Source: Alicyclobacillus acidiphilus NBRC 100859
GTDB lineage: Bacteria > Bacillota > Bacilli > Alicyclobacillales > Alicyclobacillaceae
Direction of reading: 5' to 3'
DNA length: 33,966 nucleotides
NCBI RefSeq assembly: GCF_001544355.1
Contig: NZ_BCQI01000031.1
Coordinates: 1-33,966 of the forward strand
The position numbers and the translations under genes were made by a program. Numbering within the stretch: position 1 is the first letter of the stretch; each line of letters opens with the position of its first letter. This document shows, piece after piece, positions 13,512-32,111 of the stretch. The notes below the pieces were generated by a model that saw only the letters and a program-made list of their open reading frames with translations, was not told the origin of the DNA and searched no databases.

Positions 13512-14198
13512 GTGCCGCAGCGCATTTTGATTGTGGATGACGAGCCGAAGGTCGTGGATGTCATCAAATCATTCCTCGAAGGCGAGGGGTTTGAGGTACA
13601 CGCACTTTTCGATGGATCGTCCGTCGTGAAAACCGTGGATCAACTCAAACCTGATTTGGTGATATTGGATTGGATGCTGCCAGGGGTCAGCGGGATCGAC
13701 GTCTGCCGCGAACTTCGCTCCGCTTCGGCAATTCCCATCATCATGGTGACGGCGCGATCGGAAGAAGTGGATCGCGTATTGGGACTCGAAATGGGCGCGG
13801 ACGACTATATCGCGAAGCCGTTCGGACTTCGCGAACTCGTCGCCCGTATCCGATCCGTCCTTCGCCGGGCACAGCAGCAACCTGCGCCGGAACCTGTGTA
13901 CGTGCGGGGGAATTTGAAAATTGACGAGGCCCGTTTTCGCGTGTGGAAAAATGGCGAAGAAATCGCGTTGACTCCCGCGGAGTTTCAAATGCTCGTCACA
14001 TTGGCCGCCAAACCTGGTGTGGTCTACAGCCGCCTGCAACTCCTTCAGACCGTCATGGGCAACGCGTATATGAACTATGAACGCACGGTGGACAGCCATA
14101 TCAGCCATCTTCGCCGAAAGATCGAAGATAATCCGTCCAATCCGCGGTACATTCAAACGGTTCATGGCATGGGTTATCGCTTTGGAGACGATCTATGA
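13512..14198 (+). CDS. OmpR/PhoB-family response regulator
   Basis: A 228-residue two-domain regulator. The receiver domain has the acidic pair in ILIVDDEPKV, phospho-acceptor Asp53 in LVILDWMLPG, the switch Thr in IIMVTAR and the conserved Lys in DYIAKPFGLREL. The C-terminal winged helix (about 135-228) includes LTPAEFQMLVTLA and RTVDSHISHLRRKIEDNP. The start is GTG 13512, after GAGAGGTGATC; ATG 13491 is possible but has no ribosome binding site. The stop overlaps the kinase start by four bases (ATGA), so the two are translationally coupled partners. The signal sensed is unknown, and the divergent DedA gene is a reasonable candidate target. Confidence 0.9.
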   Translation: MPQRILIVDDEPKVVDVIKSFLEGEGFEVHALFDGSSVVKTVDQLKPDLVILDWMLPGVSGIDVCRELRSASAIPIIMVTARSEEVDRVLGLEMGADDYIAKPFGLRELVARIRSVLRRAQQQPAPEPVYVRGNLKIDEARFRVWKNGEEIALTPAEFQMLVTLAAKPGVVYSRLQLLQTVMGNAYMNYERTVDSHISHLRRKIEDNPSNPRYIQTVHGMGYRFGDDL

Positions 14199-15619
14199 GG
14201 ATCACCGTCACACGCAAAGTGTTCCTCATCATTGCGTCCCTCATCGCGTTCATGTCGGCGGCCTTTTTCACGTTGGCACACAATGAACTCGAGGGCATGT
14301 TTCGCTCTTACGCCAGCCAGGCCAGACAGCGAACGGCTGTTCAATGGGCCGATGTCATCAGCTATTTCTACCGAAGCGACGGCGGATCGTGGTCCGAGGT
14401 GGACAAGCAGTTGAAAGCGCTGATGGCAGTCCGGCCGGCGGGTAACGATTTGCCTGAGCAGTTGATTGTCGTCGATCCCAAGGGACACTTGATCCTTGAC
14501 GTCGGACGACAGCGAGGCATGCGCGCACGAAGCCTGTATTCCATCGTGCATTTGCAATCGAATGGGCGCATTCTCGGCGATTTGATGATCTACGGCGAAG
14601 GCCTGGATCCGTTTTACGAGATTGAAGAGACTGTGCTGCACACGATGACCTTGGCAACGTTGTGGGGAATCATCATATCGGGAACGCTCGCGCTCTTGTC
14701 GGGCGCCTTTATGGCGAGGCGGATGACGAGACCGCTGAAACGCATGTTGCAGGCCATCAAGGGCATCACGAAAGGCGATTTATCCACGCAAATCCCGGTG
14801 TCCTCAAACGACGAATTCGGGCAAGTCGCACTTGCGTTCAACGAAATGACCAGGCAGTTGCAAGCCACGGAGCGCGCACGCACGCATCTGGTCGCCGATG
14901 TGGCCCACGAACTTCGAATTCCGCTCACGATTATCCAAGGACAATTGGAACTCATCCAACAAGGCGTCCGCGAGCCTAAACCCGAGGATTTATTGCCAAT
15001 TCACGACGAGGTCATCCGGCTGTCCAGATTGGTCCAGGATCTGCACCAACTCTCGCAAGCGGAAGTTGGCAAATTGGCTGTGCATAAACGTCCCACCGAC
15101 GCGATCGCGTTCTTCCAACGGATCGTGGAGTATTTCGAGATTGAGGCGGCGGATAAAAAGATTCGCTTGGAGTTGGAGACCAGGGACAAAACCACGGATG
15201 ATTCTGCCGCGATGGGCGATTCTGGCACGAATGGGAACGCAGCCGCGGTGAGCGCGAAGACGCGCGAGATCTTGATCGATCCCGACAGAATGACGCAGGT
15301 GTTCGTCAACCTCCTCGGCAACGCCGTCCGTTACACGCCGGACGGCGGTGAGGTCAAGGTCGTTGTCGATCTCGCGCCGCACGAACTGCGCGTGATGGTC
15401 AAGGACACCGGTCCAGGCATCGCACAGGAGCATCTGCCGTACCTGTTCGATCGATTCTATCGGGCGGACGAGGATCGCTCCCGGAATACTGGAGGGACCG
15501 GCCTGGGCCTGGCTATCGCGAAAGAGTTCGTCGTCGCACATGGCGGCGAGATCGAAGTGATGAGCGAGGTGGGGAAAGGGACGGCGTTCGTGGTGGTGCT
15601 GCCGCTGTTGCCGACTTGA
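14195..15619 (+). CDS. Membrane sensor histidine kinase
   Basis: A 474-residue partner of the upstream regulator. There is a TM helix at about 8-28, an extracytoplasmic domain of roughly 120 residues and a second TM at about 152-175. HAMP follows (RRMTRPLKRMLQAIKGITKGDL), then the phosphorylation helix with His238 in DVAHELRIPLTI, and the ATPase domain with N box NLLGNAVRYTPDGG, G1 DTGPGIA, F box LFDRFYR and G2 GGTGLGLAIAK. The usual Thr or Ser two positions after the Leu of the H box is Ile here. A hydrophilic Ser/Gly/Ala/Thr-rich insert of about 25 residues separates the dimerisation helices from the ATPase core. The extracytoplasmic ligand is unknown. Confidence 0.9.
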   Translation: MRITVTRKVFLIIASLIAFMSAAFFTLAHNELEGMFRSYASQARQRTAVQWADVISYFYRSDGGSWSEVDKQLKALMAVRPAGNDLPEQLIVVDPKGHLILDVGRQRGMRARSLYSIVHLQSNGRILGDLMIYGEGLDPFYEIEETVLHTMTLATLWGIIISGTLALLSGAFMARRMTRPLKRMLQAIKGITKGDLSTQIPVSSNDEFGQVALAFNEMTRQLQATERARTHLVADVAHELRIPLTIIQGQLELIQQGVREPKPEDLLPIHDEVIRLSRLVQDLHQLSQAEVGKLAVHKRPTDAIAFFQRIVEYFEIEAADKKIRLELETRDKTTDDSAAMGDSGTNGNAAAVSAKTREILIDPDRMTQVFVNLLGNAVRYTPDGGEVKVVVDLAPHELRVMVKDTGPGIAQEHLPYLFDRFYRADEDRSRNTGGTGLGLAIAKEFVVAHGGEIEVMSEVGKGTAFVVVLPLLPT

Positions 15620-26358: not shown

Positions 26359-28107
26359 TTACGCGTGTGCGACGGCTGCCGTTTCGATCCGCCGGCTGTG
26401 ATCAGCGATGGACAACCAGTACGTGTCGCGGGCCATGATGATCTCTTCATTGGTCGGAATCACCAAGACTTTGACCGGAGAGTAGCGGCTAGACACGATG
26501 TGCTCGCCCTGGTTTGCGGTCTGGTTCAACGCTGGATCGAGATAGACGCCGGCGTATTCGAGACCTTGGCAAATCCGCTCGCGAATCTCAGCGCTGTGTT
26601 CCCCGATCCCCGCCGTGAAGATCATGGCGTCCGCTCCATTCATTCGCGCCATGCACAGTCCGATGTAGTCGTGGATCTTGCTCACGAAGATCTCGAGGGC
26701 CACCTGCGCGCGCCGGTGCCCATTTGCCGCGGCCTGCAGCAGGACACGGACGTCGTTGCTCAGCCCGGAGACGCCGAGGAGGCCGCTCTCGTGATTGAGC
26801 TTCTCGATCACCTGCTCGGTCGTCAGATGCTCGAGCTGTTCGAGCATCGGGATGATGGCGGGATCGATATTGCCGCTGCGCGTGCCCATCGCGACGCCAG
26901 CGAGCGGCGTGAGGCCCATGGATGTGGCGTATGACTCGCCGTTCTTAATCGCGGTGACACTGACGCCGTTGCCGATGTGGCAACTGATCAGGCGGAGTCG
27001 CTCCTTGGGCGTCTCGAGAAGCTGTTCCGCGCGTTCCATCACGTAACGATGGCTGCTGCCGTGAAAGCCGTATTTGCGAATCTTGTGTTTTTCGTAGTAC
27101 TCATAAGGTATCGGGTACAGGAACGAGGTTTCGGGCATCGTCTGATGAAAACTCGTGTCAAACACGGCCACGTGCGGCACGTCTGGATAGAAGCGCTGGG
27201 CCAACCGGATCCCTTCGGCGTTGAATGGATTGTGCAAGGGCGCAAGGTAGCCGAGCCGCTCAATTTGTTCGATCACGTCGTTGTCGAGCAAGGCCGACGC
27301 TTGGAACAAATCGCCGCCGTGGACGACACGATGCCCGACAGCGTCGATGTCGCTGCCGACTCGTTCGGCAATTTGCGAGACAGCGTTCGTCAACGACTCT
27401 CCATCCGCACGGGGAAGGTTACCTTCATCCAATTGGACTTCACCCGGCATGTCGTAGACTTTGTATTTCACCGAACTGCTTCCGCAATTGAGTACGAGAA
27501 CGCGTTTGGGTGTAAAGGTTTGAATTTCATGAATCGCGTCGATCTGGATGACGCTCACGATGTCTCCCGTCGACAGGCCGGACGCGTTCGCTTCGTCGGT
27601 GTCGATGTGAAACTCGAGCTGGTAGTTTGGATTCACGCGGCAGAGCACCTGTTCGAGAATGACTCGGCGCTCGCCTTTCGTCATCACGGCGACAAGGTCC
27701 TTGTCATGGACGCCGAGTTCCATGGCGTCTGTCGGGTGCAGATGCAGGTGGCGCTTCGCCAGTATGACACCGCGATCCAGCACAACAGAACCGTTCGGGC
27801 CAATCACTTCGATGCCAGGCGTCCCATCGATGTCGCCGGAGTCTCTCACGGGAGGGCGCAGCCCGAGCACATAGCTGTCGGTTTTCGAGATTTCGACTTG
27901 TGAGTACGGCCGCACTGGTCCGAGTACGCGCACGTTTGGGATCATGCCCTTGGGCCCCTTCAGCGTGACGGTTTCCTGACAAGCATACTGCCCAGGCTGT
28001 TTGAGTGGTTTGAGGACCTGAAACTCGTGGTTTTGACCAAACAGCTGATGTGCGTGTTCCTGCGTCAAGTGAATATGTCGATTGGATACGCCTACAGGTA
28101 CGTGCAT
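26359..28107 (-). CDS. Fused phosphotransacylase (PduL) and acetate kinase (AckA)
   Basis: A 582-residue protein joining two enzymes of the acetate pathway. Residues 1 to about 190 are a complete PduL-type phosphotransacylase: SNRHIHL (His11, His13) and KRHLHLH (His120, His122) are the zinc-site motifs, and HIDTDEAN is at 167-174. Residues 201-582 are acetate kinase with Asn207 (LNCGSSS), Arg260 (GHRVVHGG), Asp317 (FDTSFH), His349 (YGFHGSSH), Arg410 (GTRSGNIDP) and the ATP-site NEE at 553-555, all matching catalytic positions. Acetyl-CoA plus phosphate would give acetyl phosphate, then acetate and ATP. No microcompartment-targeting extension is seen. The start is ATG 28107 after AGGAGGG. The gene is divergent from kbl-tdh, which makes acetyl-CoA. 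Confidence 0.93.
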   Translation of the reverse strand: MHVPVGVSNRHIHLTQEHAHQLFGQNHEFQVLKPLKQPGQYACQETVTLKGPKGMIPNVRVLGPVRPYSQVEISKTDSYVLGLRPPVRDSGDIDGTPGIEVIGPNGSVVLDRGVILAKRHLHLHPTDAMELGVHDKDLVAVMTKGERRVILEQVLCRVNPNYQLEFHIDTDEANASGLSTGDIVSVIQIDAIHEIQTFTPKRVLVLNCGSSSVKYKVYDMPGEVQLDEGNLPRADGESLTNAVSQIAERVGSDIDAVGHRVVHGGDLFQASALLDNDVIEQIERLGYLAPLHNPFNAEGIRLAQRFYPDVPHVAVFDTSFHQTMPETSFLYPIPYEYYEKHKIRKYGFHGSSHRYVMERAEQLLETPKERLRLISCHIGNGVSVTAIKNGESYATSMGLTPLAGVAMGTRSGNIDPAIIPMLEQLEHLTTEQVIEKLNHESGLLGVSGLSNDVRVLLQAAANGHRRAQVALEIFVSKIHDYIGLCMARMNGADAMIFTAGIGEHSAEIRERICQGLEYAGVYLDPALNQTANQGEHIVSSRYSPVKVLVIPTNEEIIMARDTYWLSIADHSRRIETAAVAHA

Positions 28108-28153
28108 AGGGCAACCCTCCTGGTGAGTCTGTGATTCGGCATCTCATGCTCCC

Positions 28154-28349: not shown

Positions 28350-29540
28350 ATGGCGAACCAAAGTTTACAGTCATTTCTCGAGGCAAACTTGGGTGAATTG
28401 AAGGCGAATGGACTCTACAATGAGATTGAGCCGCTGCAGAGCGCGAACGGCCCCGTGATCGACATCAACGGCCGATCACTCATCAATCTCTCTTCGAATA
28501 ATTACTTTGGCCTTGCGACGGACAAACGGTTGATTCAGGCGGCTGTCGAGGCGACCGAGAAATACGGCGTTGGCGCAGGCGCCGTGCGAACCATCAATGG
28601 AACGCTCGACATTCATGTCGAGTTGGAGCGCAAAATCGCCGAGTTCAAGCACACCGAAGCGGCTATCGTGTTCCAGTCCGGCTTCAATTGCAATATGGGC
28701 GCGATTTCCGCAGTCATGGACGCCAACGACGCCATTTTGTCGGACGAGTTGAACCACGCGTCGATCATCGACGGCTGTCGTCTCTCCAGAGCGAAGATCA
28801 TCCGCGTCAAGCACTCCGACATGGACGATTTGCGCGCCAAGGCGAAAGAAGCCAAGGAGTCCGGACAGTACAACAAGGTAATGGTCATTACGGACGGCGT
28901 CTTCTCGATGGACGGAGATGTGGCAAAACTGCCTGAGATCGCCGAGATCGCCAAGGAGTTCGATCTTATCACCTACGTGGACGACGCGCACGGTTCGGGC
29001 GTGATGGGCAACGGCGCCGGCACTGTGAAGCATTTTGGCCTGTCCGACCAGATCGATTTCCAAATTGGCACCTTGTCGAAGGCGATTGGCGTCGTGGGCG
29101 GATATGTCGCCGGCCGCCAGGAGCTGATAGACTGGCTGAAGGTTCGGGCCCGGCCGTTTTTGTTCTCGACTTCGATGACACCTGGGGCCGCTGCGGCATG
29201 CATCGTCGCCATCGACATCTTGATGGACAGTTCCGATCTGCAGGAGCGGTTGTGGGAGAATGGCCGTTACCTGAAAGAGGGACTGAAGAAGCTTGGATTT
29301 GACATTGGCCACAGCGAGACCCCGATCACGCCGTGCATCATTGGCGACGAAACCGCGACGCAAGCGTTCAGCAAACGCCTGTACGCGGAAGGAGTCTACG
29401 CGAAGTCCGTCGTATTTCCGACTGTGCCCAAAGGAACAGGGCGCATCCGCAACATGCCGACTGCGGCTCATACGAAAGACATGTTGGATCAAGCGCTCGC
29501 AATCTACGAACGTGCGGGCAAGGACATGAACATCATTTGA
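28350..29540 (+). CDS. kbl: Glycine C-acetyltransferase (2-amino-3-ketobutyrate CoA ligase)
   Basis: A 396-residue PLP enzyme of the alpha-oxoamine synthase family, standard length. It cleaves 2-amino-3-oxobutyrate with CoA to glycine and acetyl-CoA. Visible marks are [15 protein letters not shown] near the N terminus, [24 protein letters not shown] with the cofactor Asp, and the Schiff-base Lys244 in [13 protein letters not shown]. The pairing with tdh 30 bases downstream distinguishes it from BioF or HemA relatives. The start is ATG 28350, seven bases after GAGGAGGG. It forms one operon with tdh for threonine breakdown. Confidence 0.95.
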
Positions 29541-29570
29541 CGTGTTCGGATGGATTCAGGAGGTTCTCAC

Positions 29571-30536
29571 GTGAAACGTATCTTAGTTACCGGCGCGCTT
29601 GGGCAAATCGGTTCGGAACTCGTCGCCCGCCTGAGGCAGGATTATGGAGCGGACAACGTCATTGAAACCGACATTCACGCGCCGACGCAAACCAGTGACA
29701 GTCCAACGGGCGGCTCCGGTCCATTCGAATTGCTCGATGTCACCGACGGTCAGCGCATGGCGGAACTGGTCGACAAGCATCAAGTTGACACCATCATCCA
29801 CTTGGCGGCATTGTTGTCCGTCACGGCTGAAAAGAATCCGTTGTTGGCCTGGAACCTCAACATGGGCGGCCTCATGAACGCGCTTGAAGTCGCCAGACAA
29901 TTTGGCTGTCAGGTGTTTTATCCGAGTTCCATCGCGGCGTTCGGTCCCCTGACGCCGAGGTTTCAGACGCCGCAGGACACCATCCAGCGGCCGACGACGA
30001 TGTACGGCATCAACAAAGTCGCTGGGGAATTGCTTTGTGACTATTACTTTCGGAAGTACGGCGTCGACGCGCGCGGCGTGCGCTTTCCAGGCCTCATCTC
30101 GCACAAGACGCCGCCCGGCGGCGGAACGACCGATTACGCGGTCGAGATTTATTACGAGGCGGTCCGGACAGGCAGGTACGTATGCCCCATCGCGAAAGGG
30201 ACCTACATGGACATGATGTACATGGAGGATGCCATCACGGCCGTGATCGACCTGATGGAGGCGGACGGCAGCCGATTGAAGCACCGCAATGCATTCAATA
30301 TCTCCGCCATGAGTGTGGATCCGGAGATGATCCGCTCGGCGATCCAGACCTGGATCCCGACGTTTGAGATGGCGTACGAGGTCGATAGTGAAAAGCAGTC
30401 GATTGCGGACAGTTGGCCGGATGCCATCGACTCCAGCGCGGCCCATGAGGAATGGGGCTTCCGCGCAAGGTACAATCTCGATGCCACCACGCGCGAAATG
30501 ATTGTCCATTTGCGAAAAAAGTTTGCGGTGATATAA
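29571..30536 (+). CDS. tdh: L-threonine 3-dehydrogenase, short-chain (epimerase-like) type
   Basis: A 321-residue NAD-dependent dehydrogenase of the GalE-like extended SDR group, which oxidises L-threonine to 2-amino-3-oxobutyrate for Kbl. The Rossmann motif is VTGALGQIGSEL at the N terminus, and the catalytic pair is Tyr145 and Lys149 in MYGINK. It is unrelated to the zinc-dependent threonine dehydrogenase of E. coli. The start is GTG 29571 because AGGAGG sits six bases upstream; ATG 29550 would precede that site. The final codons and stop also form the terminator hairpin shared with sdaAB, whose stop is only nine bases away on the other strand. Confidence 0.92.
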   Translation: MKRILVTGALGQIGSELVARLRQDYGADNVIETDIHAPTQTSDSPTGGSGPFELLDVTDGQRMAELVDKHQVDTIIHLAALLSVTAEKNPLLAWNLNMGGLMNALEVARQFGCQVFYPSSIAAFGPLTPRFQTPQDTIQRPTTMYGINKVAGELLCDYYFRKYGVDARGVRFPGLISHKTPPGGGTTDYAVEIYYEAVRTGRYVCPIAKGTYMDMMYMEDAITAVIDLMEADGSRLKHRNAFNISAMSVDPEMIRSAIQTWIPTFEMAYEVDSEKQSIADSWPDAIDSSAAHEEWGFRARYNLDATTREMIVHLRKKFAVI

Positions 30537-30547
30537 CACCGCAAACT
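30514..30547 (-). terminator. Intrinsic terminator of the sda operon, overlapping the tdh end
   Basis: AGTTTGCGGTG (30520-30530) and CACCGCAAACT (30537-30547) form a perfect 11-bp stem with a six-base loop that contains the tdh stop codon. Read on the minus strand, the stem is followed by a TTTTTT run (the AAAAAA at 30515-30520), so it is a canonical terminator for sdaAB whose left half and T tract are tdh codons. Confidence 0.8.
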
Positions 30548-31214
30548 ACTCGGCATGGACGACGCGAACGTCCATCAATTGCTTGACCTCGGCGCGGAGC
30601 GTTTGCAGCAGCGCTTCGTCAAACGGTTCGTCGATTTCGCAGACGGTGACGGCCGATCCGCCGCGCGTCCATCGTTCCAAACTCAAACGGGCGATATTGT
30701 ACCCTCTCGCGTCGAGCAAGTGGGACACCTTTGCCAAAAAACCGCGCGTATCGGTGTGGTACAAGATCAACGTGGTCCGCTCACCCGTGAATTTGATGGG
30801 CAATCCGTCCAACTCCTGGACCTCGACCTTGCCGCCGCCGAGCGAACTCGCGACGACCGTGGTGGAACGATGGTTCCCTCGGATGTCGATAGCTACGGTA
30901 TTGGGGTGAAAGTAGCCGACGTGGCCGGGTTGAAAGTGGTACTCGAGACCAGCCTCGAGTGCCGCCTTGTCCGCTTCCGGAATGCGGGGATCGTCCGTCG
31001 CCATCCCGAGTACGCCAGCCAACAAGGCCACATCGGTGCCGTGTCCTTCGTAGGTTTGCGCGAACGAGCCCATGAGCCGAAACGACACCTGCTTAGGTTC
31101 TTCGCCGAGCACTTGCCGGGCCAAGTTTCCGATTCGTACGGCGCCAGCCGTGTGTGAGCTGGATGGCCCCACCATGATGGGGCCGATAATATCGAACACG
31201 CTGTTGTATTTCAC
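30546..31214 (-). CDS. sdaAB: L-serine dehydratase, beta subunit
   Basis: A 222-residue subunit of the iron-sulfur L-serine dehydratase (serine to pyruvate and ammonia). The N-terminal part starts with SVFDIIGPIMVGPSSSHTAG, the serine dehydratase beta signature, and contains the expected FRLMGSFAQTYEGHGTD region (about 45-62). The C-terminal part (about 145-215) is an ACT domain (TTLILYHTDTRGFLAKVSHL), a regulatory amino-acid-binding fold. The start is GTG 31214 following GAGGTGAC, six bases after the alpha-subunit stop, so translation is coupled. It is second in the operon, the reverse of the order I recall for Bacillus subtilis. Confidence 0.93.
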   Translation of the reverse strand: MKYNSVFDIIGPIMVGPSSSHTAGAVRIGNLARQVLGEEPKQVSFRLMGSFAQTYEGHGTDVALLAGVLGMATDDPRIPEADKAALEAGLEYHFQPGHVGYFHPNTVAIDIRGNHRSTTVVASSLGGGKVEVQELDGLPIKFTGERTTLILYHTDTRGFLAKVSHLLDARGYNIARLSLERWTRGGSAVTVCEIDEPFDEALLQTLRAEVKQLMDVRVVHAE

Positions 31215-31220
31215 GCATCG

Positions 31221-32111
31221 TCACCTCGATTCGCAAGGCTTGCCAAATACCTGTTCGCGCAGGGCTTTTCCGCGGGGCGTCGCGGCCAGCCCCCCAAGTC
31301 CCGTCTCGCGCAGGGATTCCGGCATCGCGTTGCCGATCTCGTACATCGCCTGAATCACTTCGTCCGGCGGAATGATGCTCTTTACGCCTGCCAACGCCAT
31401 ATCGGCTGCCGCGAGCGCAGTGACCGCATGCAGTCCGTTGCGGATAATGCAAGGGATTTCCACCAGACCGCCGACCGGATCGCACACGAGCCCGAGCGAA
31501 TTCTTCAGCGCCAGGCCCACCGCGTGACCGACTTGCTCAGGTGTTCCGCCGGCGATCTCGACCACTGCTCCAGCCGCCATCGCAGTCGCCGATCCAATCT
31601 CCGCCTGACAGCCGCCAGCTGCCCCCGAGATGGAAGCGGAGTTGGCGATGACCAGTCCCAGCGCGGCCGCCGTCAACAGCGACATGACGATGGACTCGCG
31701 CGGATATTTGCCCGTTTCGAGAATCGAGATCAGAACCCCAGGCAATATGCCGGCCGATCCCGCCGTTGGCGTCGCCACAATCCTTCCCATGCCCGCATTC
31801 ACTTCGTTGACGGACAAAGCGTACGCCATCGCCTGGAGCGCCGCCGGATGCAGAAACGATCGGCCGGTCTTCAGATACTCCTGGACCAGGTACGCGTCCC
31901 CGCCAGTCAGTCCCGTACGGGATCGAATCGGCTCGCGCGTTCCCTTGTGCGCCGCTTCCTCCATCACTTCGAACTGGCGATTCATAAGCTGGATGATCTC
32001 GTCTTTGGATCGCCCAGATTGTTCACATTCGACTTCGAGCATGACGTTCGCGATCGACGTGTTCTTCGTCTCGGCGAGTTTGATTAAATCGTGCAAATGG
32101 ACGAACGCCAT
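31221..32111 (-). CDS. sdaAA: L-serine dehydratase, alpha subunit
   Basis: A 296-residue catalytic subunit that binds an oxygen-sensitive [4Fe-4S] cluster and deaminates L-serine to pyruvate. The cluster ligands expected for the family are present: Cys168 (GGCQAEIGSA), Cys210 (LVCDPVGG) and Cys221 (EIPCIIRN). IVATPTAGSAGILPG is the substrate-site motif. The start is ATG 32111, six bases after GAGGAGG. It leads the sda operon. Glycine from Tdh/Kbl could feed it only via serine hydroxymethyltransferase, which is not in the window. Confidence 0.94.
   Translation of the reverse strand: MAFVHLHDLIKLAETKNTSIANVMLEVECEQSGRSKDEIIQLMNRQFEVMEEAAHKGTREPIRSRTGLTGGDAYLVQEYLKTGRSFLHPAALQAMAYALSVNEVNAGMGRIVATPTAGSAGILPGVLISILETGKYPRESIVMSLLTAAALGLVIANSASISGAAGGCQAEIGSATAMAAGAVVEIAGGTPEQVGHAVGLALKNSLGLVCDPVGGLVEIPCIIRNGLHAVTALAAADMALAGVKSIIPPDEVIQAMYEIGNAMPESLRETGLGGLAATPRGKALREQVFGKPCESR

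Follow-up and report, generated by a model that had tools for sequence, protein, structure and literature searches.

The contig of Alicyclobacillus acidiphilus NBRC 100859 analysed here (the window, 33,966 nucleotides) carries an open reading frame in which a PduL-type phosphotransacylase appears to be joined to an acetate kinase, raising the question of whether the two have truly become a single enzyme and, if so, what the union provides to the cell. Judging from the sequence, the product is very probably a bifunctional phosphotransacylase-acetate kinase that does the work of Pta and AckA in the cytosol, in a bacterium that has no microcompartments. The PduL half would interconvert acetyl-CoA and Pi with acetyl phosphate and CoA, the kinase half would interconvert acetyl phosphate and ADP with acetate and ATP, and ATP would be gained in the acetate-forming direction. 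We infer enzymatic activity, a preference for acetyl over propionyl groups and the direction of flux for the fusion.

The initial annotation had placed PduL and AckA in one polypeptide, and both domain profiles indeed match the 582-aa frame, which opens with ATG and, upon translation, contains no internal stop (Table 1). The accompanying doubt, that a frameshift or stop might separate the domains, is dispelled by this uninterrupted frame and by stop-free fusions in 19 genomes. No Met, GTG or TTG codon was read near the start of the kinase (residues 196-203), so that there is no obvious internal translation start, and a separate internal start for the kinase was rejected on this ground. Together with the good ribosome-binding site at the ATG, this makes one chain the likely product, presumably a single, unprocessed one. 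A promoter scan returned 0 sites, and terminator-like sites numbered 3 against 2.0 expected, a difference that carries no information.

Table 1. Features of the fusion gene and its neighbourhood, in window coordinates
Feature	Position	Strand	Basis or remark
PduL-acetate kinase fusion	26359..28107	-	582 aa, single open frame
Shine-Dalgarno-like AGGAGG	28116..28121	-	8 nt 5' of ATG (read from sequence)
PTAC/PduL domain, residues 4-178	27574..28098	-	profile match; both RHxH motifs
Linker joining the domains, about residues 188-201	27505..27546	-	sequence, alignment
Compact acetate kinase domain, residues 202-566	26410..27504	-	profiles, alignments, model
Site of ~28-30 canonical residues absent here	27388..27423 (approximate)	-	spacing count, alignments, model
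kbl-type gene	28350..29540	+	profile match; flanks fusion, divergent
Epimerase-family dehydrogenase gene	29550..30536	+	profile match
Serine dehydratase genes, both subunits	30546..32111	-	profile match

The PduL half was annotated as complete, with its zinc residues present, and this description holds. The PTAC profile (PF06130, Pfam) matches residues 4-178 with 257.7 bits against a cut-off of 25, covering positions 1-175 of 176, and the phosphate propanoyltransferase model PRK15070 (NCBIfam) also scores above its cut-off; the two RHxH motifs correspond to H11/H13 and H120/H122. The zinc- and phosphate-binding residues reported for rPduL, namely, His48, His50, Glu109, His157, His159, His204, Arg103 and Ser127 (Erbilgin et al., 2016; PMC4784909), fall at a constant offset of 37 on H11, H13, E72, H120, H122, H167, R66 and S90, a mapping which rests on the phmmer match of residues 2-187 to residues 7-192 of 5cuo_A, two segments of equal length, consistent with the absence of a gap. 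All eight residues are invariant across 18 aligned fusions. A phosphotransacylase with a two-zinc site is the likeliest identity of this half, as predicted from sequence. Its structure was poorly modelled, with 12 of the first 19 ten-residue blocks below pLDDT 50 and only 3 PduL rows in the alignment used for the model.

The stand-alone microcompartment enzyme (rPduL, 5cuo) shares its zinc ligands and phosphate-binding residues with the fusion. Microcompartment PduLs differ, however, in carrying an N-terminal extension and in adjoining shell genes, as does the 259-aa PduL of L038 (genome G221), which starts about 60 residues before the core, in what is presumably an encapsulation peptide, and lies beside a PF00936 shell gene. 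By contrast, the fusion protein starts MHVPVGVSNRHIH, directly at its PduL half and with no N-terminal extension, and the source genome yielded 0 matches to PF00936, in line with the original remark that no microcompartment signal was present. A role as metabolosome core enzyme was rejected, since the protein lacks a targeting extension and its genome shows no shell genes.

The second half belongs to the acetate kinase family, as a compact subgroup of it. It matches PF00871 (Pfam) with 448.1 bits (cut-off 22; residues 247-560, profile positions 76-392 of 392) and ackA (TIGR00016, NCBIfam) with 450.4 (cut-off 293.4). The residues which we take to be the catalytic positions of the Methanosarcina thermophila enzyme (1g99), N7, R91, H123, D148, H180, N211, R241 and E384, align to N207, R260, H292, D317, H349, N380, R410 and E554. 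Canonical AckA (1g99, 2iir) and TdcD/PduW have the same fold and the same catalytic residues but, in the sampled canonical records, an N-terminal stretch longer by about 28-30 residues. The difference is apparent in the spacing of the NxGSSS and HRVVHG motifs: 52 residues separate them in the window protein, versus 80-90 in 78 canonical records (of 99; the other 21 have variant motifs and were not scored), and each of the 33 scored records of fused or compact kinases, representing 30 distinct genes, has 52-53; L024, which fell outside the motif filter, has 53 by eye. The earlier description of a complete acetate kinase therefore needs qualification: the catalytic residues are in place, whereas ~28-30 residues are missing near the N-terminus and the profile match begins at position 76. 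Compactness is a clade-wide trait rather than damage, and the motifs retained on both sides of the gap identify a compact subgroup, not a non-member, of the family. In the model, where most of the kinase half has pLDDT > 90, the third strand (224-232) leads directly into the first helix (237-250), and a Foldseek search ranked acetate kinases first (rank 1, 9a4d_A; 1g99_A, TMt 0.82). The mycobacterial AckA 4dq8_A (phmmer; query 200-561 to chain 10-384) shows a smaller length gap, and since some mycobacterial enzymes are thus closer in length, compactness may have arisen more than once and may not be unique to this group. Not every fused kinase keeps all of these catalytic residues: L018-L023, which are six of the 18 aligned fusions and come from family f23 throughout, carry Ser where the window protein has N380.

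Does the fusion stand alone in its genome? The initial annotation proposed a check for separate pta and ackA genes, and none was found. Profile searches of the source genome (3.86 Mb, 99.96% complete) returned one match each for PF00871 and PF06130 and, for PF01515, a single sub-cut-off match of 21 bits, which falls in an ORF of 332 aa that has VVDAMGGDYAP among its first residues and is presumably PlsX; the PF01515 search thus uncovered no convincing Pta.

Beyond this genome, the fusion is present in 19 of the 398 sampled genomes of the class Bacilli, spanning seven families and eight genera, and all 19 were confirmed by translation as stop-free frames. Full-length relatives occur in 18 other genomes, 17 of them at 53-71% identity, with L024 as the remaining one. 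Within its own family, the fusion is confined to 4 of 41 genomes, all among the 15 of its own genus; in addition, G037 encodes a lone PduL, and in G038 part of the kinase is matched weakly. Among 299 genomes sampled across the phylum, a match spanning both halves was obtained in the source genome only, the next best (414 bits) covering the kinase alone. Of the 80 loci listed from a separate scan of genome contigs, a list from which close relatives may be missing, none carries a PduL-Ack fusion and three have both genes separately, which does not argue for absence elsewhere.

A strong Pta/Ptb match is absent from 16 of the 19 fusion genomes. One of the other three, G129, matches Pta strongly (302 bits), whereas the matches near 150 bits in G197 and G178 are probably Ptb, given a butyrate-kinase-like match ~2 kb away in each. 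Four of the 16, from the genus of the source organism, give weak PF01515 matches of 21-24 bits, of which three narrowly exceed the Pfam cut-off; equivalent matches of 26-27 bits in the four fusion-free genomes of the same genus that were searched indicate that these do not track the fusion, and they are read as PlsX, the ORF having been inspected in the source genome. A second acetate kinase is missing from 12 of the 19, including G178 with its butyrate-kinase-like match, and a canonical one accompanies the fusion in the other seven (G149, G169, G197, G173, G109, G143 and G352), so that some genomes have an alternative to the fusion. Shell genes (PF00936) are found in seven of the 19. The fusion presents PduL in a setting away from microcompartments, apparently substituting for Pta.

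The architecture itself is already known. PF06130 has been noted in multidomain proteins mostly annotated as Acks and devoid of encapsulation peptides, in which PduL may replace Pta and channelling may be the reason why the fusion evolved (Erbilgin et al., 2016; PMC4784909). This answers the question, left undecided at first, of whether such proteins had been described: the architecture was published in 2016, together with the idea of channelling. The likeness to the window protein lies in the two domains sharing one chain and in the lack of an encapsulation peptide; the portions of that article available to us devote two sentences to these proteins, without organisms or accessions, and make no mention of a compact kinase or of domain loss, and the available portions of PMC4207490 do not describe a PduL-Ack chain. 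A literature search, with most subscription journals outside its reach, yielded no further paper pointing to the fusion. The fusion opens no new kind of system; what is added here is the compact kinase, the single clade of fused and compact kinases, and an unfused kinase at the same locus.

A second route to a similar protein is provided by L194:611-2866 (+) of G450, from another family of the phylum, a real Pta-AckA fusion of 752 aa (PF01515 and PF00871). Like the window protein, it has the phosphotransacylase N-terminal to the acetate kinase in one frame; unlike it, the phosphotransacylase is Pta, unrelated to PduL, and the kinase is full-length, which, judging from these family assignments, suggests an independent fusion. 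Open frames of 736-759 aa in several genomes had suggested Pta-Ack fusions, and of eight that were inspected only L194 proved truly fused: L188 comprises two separate genes, and in L191-L193 and L195-L197 the kinase occupies a frame of 404-411 aa. A long reported open frame is, accordingly, no proof of fusion.

Phylogenetic analysis placed the fused and compact kinases in a single group apart from the canonical ones, with support of 100 and 100/100 in two trees. Twelve compact kinases are unfused, all from genus g43 of family f23 and an uncultured Brevibacillus record (L087), and they nest within the fused group beside fused kinases of the same family (support 99, and 99/98, the latter in a tree that took in six of the twelve). 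Fused kinases were held apart from unfused ones in 0% of 200 bootstrap trees, and keeping the fused kinases together was not rejected by the AU test (p 0.141). The loci themselves correspond: all six loci compared (fused L178, L179, L180 and L185; unfused L182 and L183; family names taken from the L178 copies) have a VanZ-like gene on the upstream side and, on the downstream side, an S1-domain gene close by and an alpha/beta-hydrolase gene at a greater distance, and the fused locus L177 has the S1-domain and alpha/beta-hydrolase genes in common with the other six. Brevibacillus-type genomes carry an unfused compact kinase at the locus where relatives carry the fusion. The two such genomes examined for shell genes, G221 and G294, possess them, with a separate PduL adjoining the shell genes. 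The simplest reading is in-place loss of the PduL half, a reading that draws on the tree and the shared neighbours rather than on the AU test; the alternatives, that the fused relatives joined the two genes anew or that the ancestor was unfused, are less simple, given that every outer branch carries the fusion. The fusion with a compact kinase looks like an old event in Bacilli, which at least one lineage has probably reversed by shedding its PduL half. Loss of the other half is suggested for G037, whose lone PduL (L008:1501-2115, G037:C27) falls inside the fused PduL group, alongside the source organism's genus (fork support 100/100, eight rows; AU p 0.036 with the long branch of L008 in play).

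These apparent losses bear on the alternative that the fusion exists for channelling, in which acetyl phosphate would pass from the PduL site straight to that of the kinase instead of acting as a phosphodonor. We regard this as rather unlikely. Consecutive steps are joined in one chain and have been kept so across seven families, and channelling has been put forward as a possibility in print (Erbilgin et al., 2016; PMC4784909). Against it, Brevibacillus-type genomes have a compact kinase without PduL at the same locus, which suggests, though not decisively (AU p 0.141), that the linkage can be given up, as does the PduL-only gene of G037 nested among fused ones (AU p 0.036, long branch). If the PduL half was indeed lost, the two enzymes can be parted again, which counts against a channel that the cell could not do without; a channel would then be at most advantageous, not required. 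The canonical acetate kinases encoded in addition to the fusion in seven of 19 genomes likewise argue against a necessary channel. Moreover, no confident two-domain model was obtained, and an inter-domain distance is therefore not claimed. Any kinetic gain of the bifunctional enzyme would more likely stem from proximity and fixed 1:1 dosage than from a sealed channel. The matched fused and unfused compact kinases offer material for testing the effect of fusion on acetyl-phosphate release.

An unlikely alternative concerns the direction of the pathway: the enzyme might serve mainly in acetate assimilation (acetate and ATP to acetyl-CoA), or be linked, by way of the divergent kbl and dehydrogenase genes, to the breakdown of threonine/glycine, instead of serving overflow excretion of acetate. 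Kbl yields acetyl-CoA, the adjacent epimerase-family dehydrogenase may be a threonine dehydrogenase, and these genes flank the fusion together with those for serine dehydratase. Yet the direction cannot be read from the sequence, and a tblastn comparison with stretches of 13.5-17 kb around 17 other fusions (the 18 less G109) found none of the four neighbours, and they were likewise not found at two unfused-kinase loci or near the lone PduL of G037; since they are not conserved, the context does not fix the role. As it stands in the window, the stretch 28350..32111 forms an amino-acid breakdown cluster adjoining the fusion. A response regulator and histidine kinase pair is encoded at 13518..15610 (+), about 11 kb from the fusion, and in L167 close relatives of this pair (72% and 60% identity) lie at a distance of about 4 kb from the fusion; the L168 stretch around the fusion contains them too.

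A more elaborate scenario, which we consider improbable, is that by shedding its N-terminal insertion the compact kinase gained a surface on which PduL docks, giving an integrated enzyme with direct handover of acetyl phosphate, and that in Brevibacillus-type lineages the PduL half later dropped out and the kinase took a microcompartment PduL as its new partner. Were this scenario true, these lineages would constitute a natural before-and-after test of channelling.

Finally, that the fusion is an artefact, be it a frameshift, an assembly join or a chimera of two neighbouring genes, can be virtually dismissed, for although pduL and ackA do occur elsewhere as adjacent separate genes in both orders, the stop-free fusion recurs with matching boundaries in nineteen genomes of seven families. 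Such adjacent pairs were observed as pduL-ackA in L142 and L086 (Desulforamulus putei and a Clostridia MAG) and as ackA-pduL in L099 and L074 (Caldalkalibacillus mannanilyticus and G058), and are plausible forerunners of the fusion.
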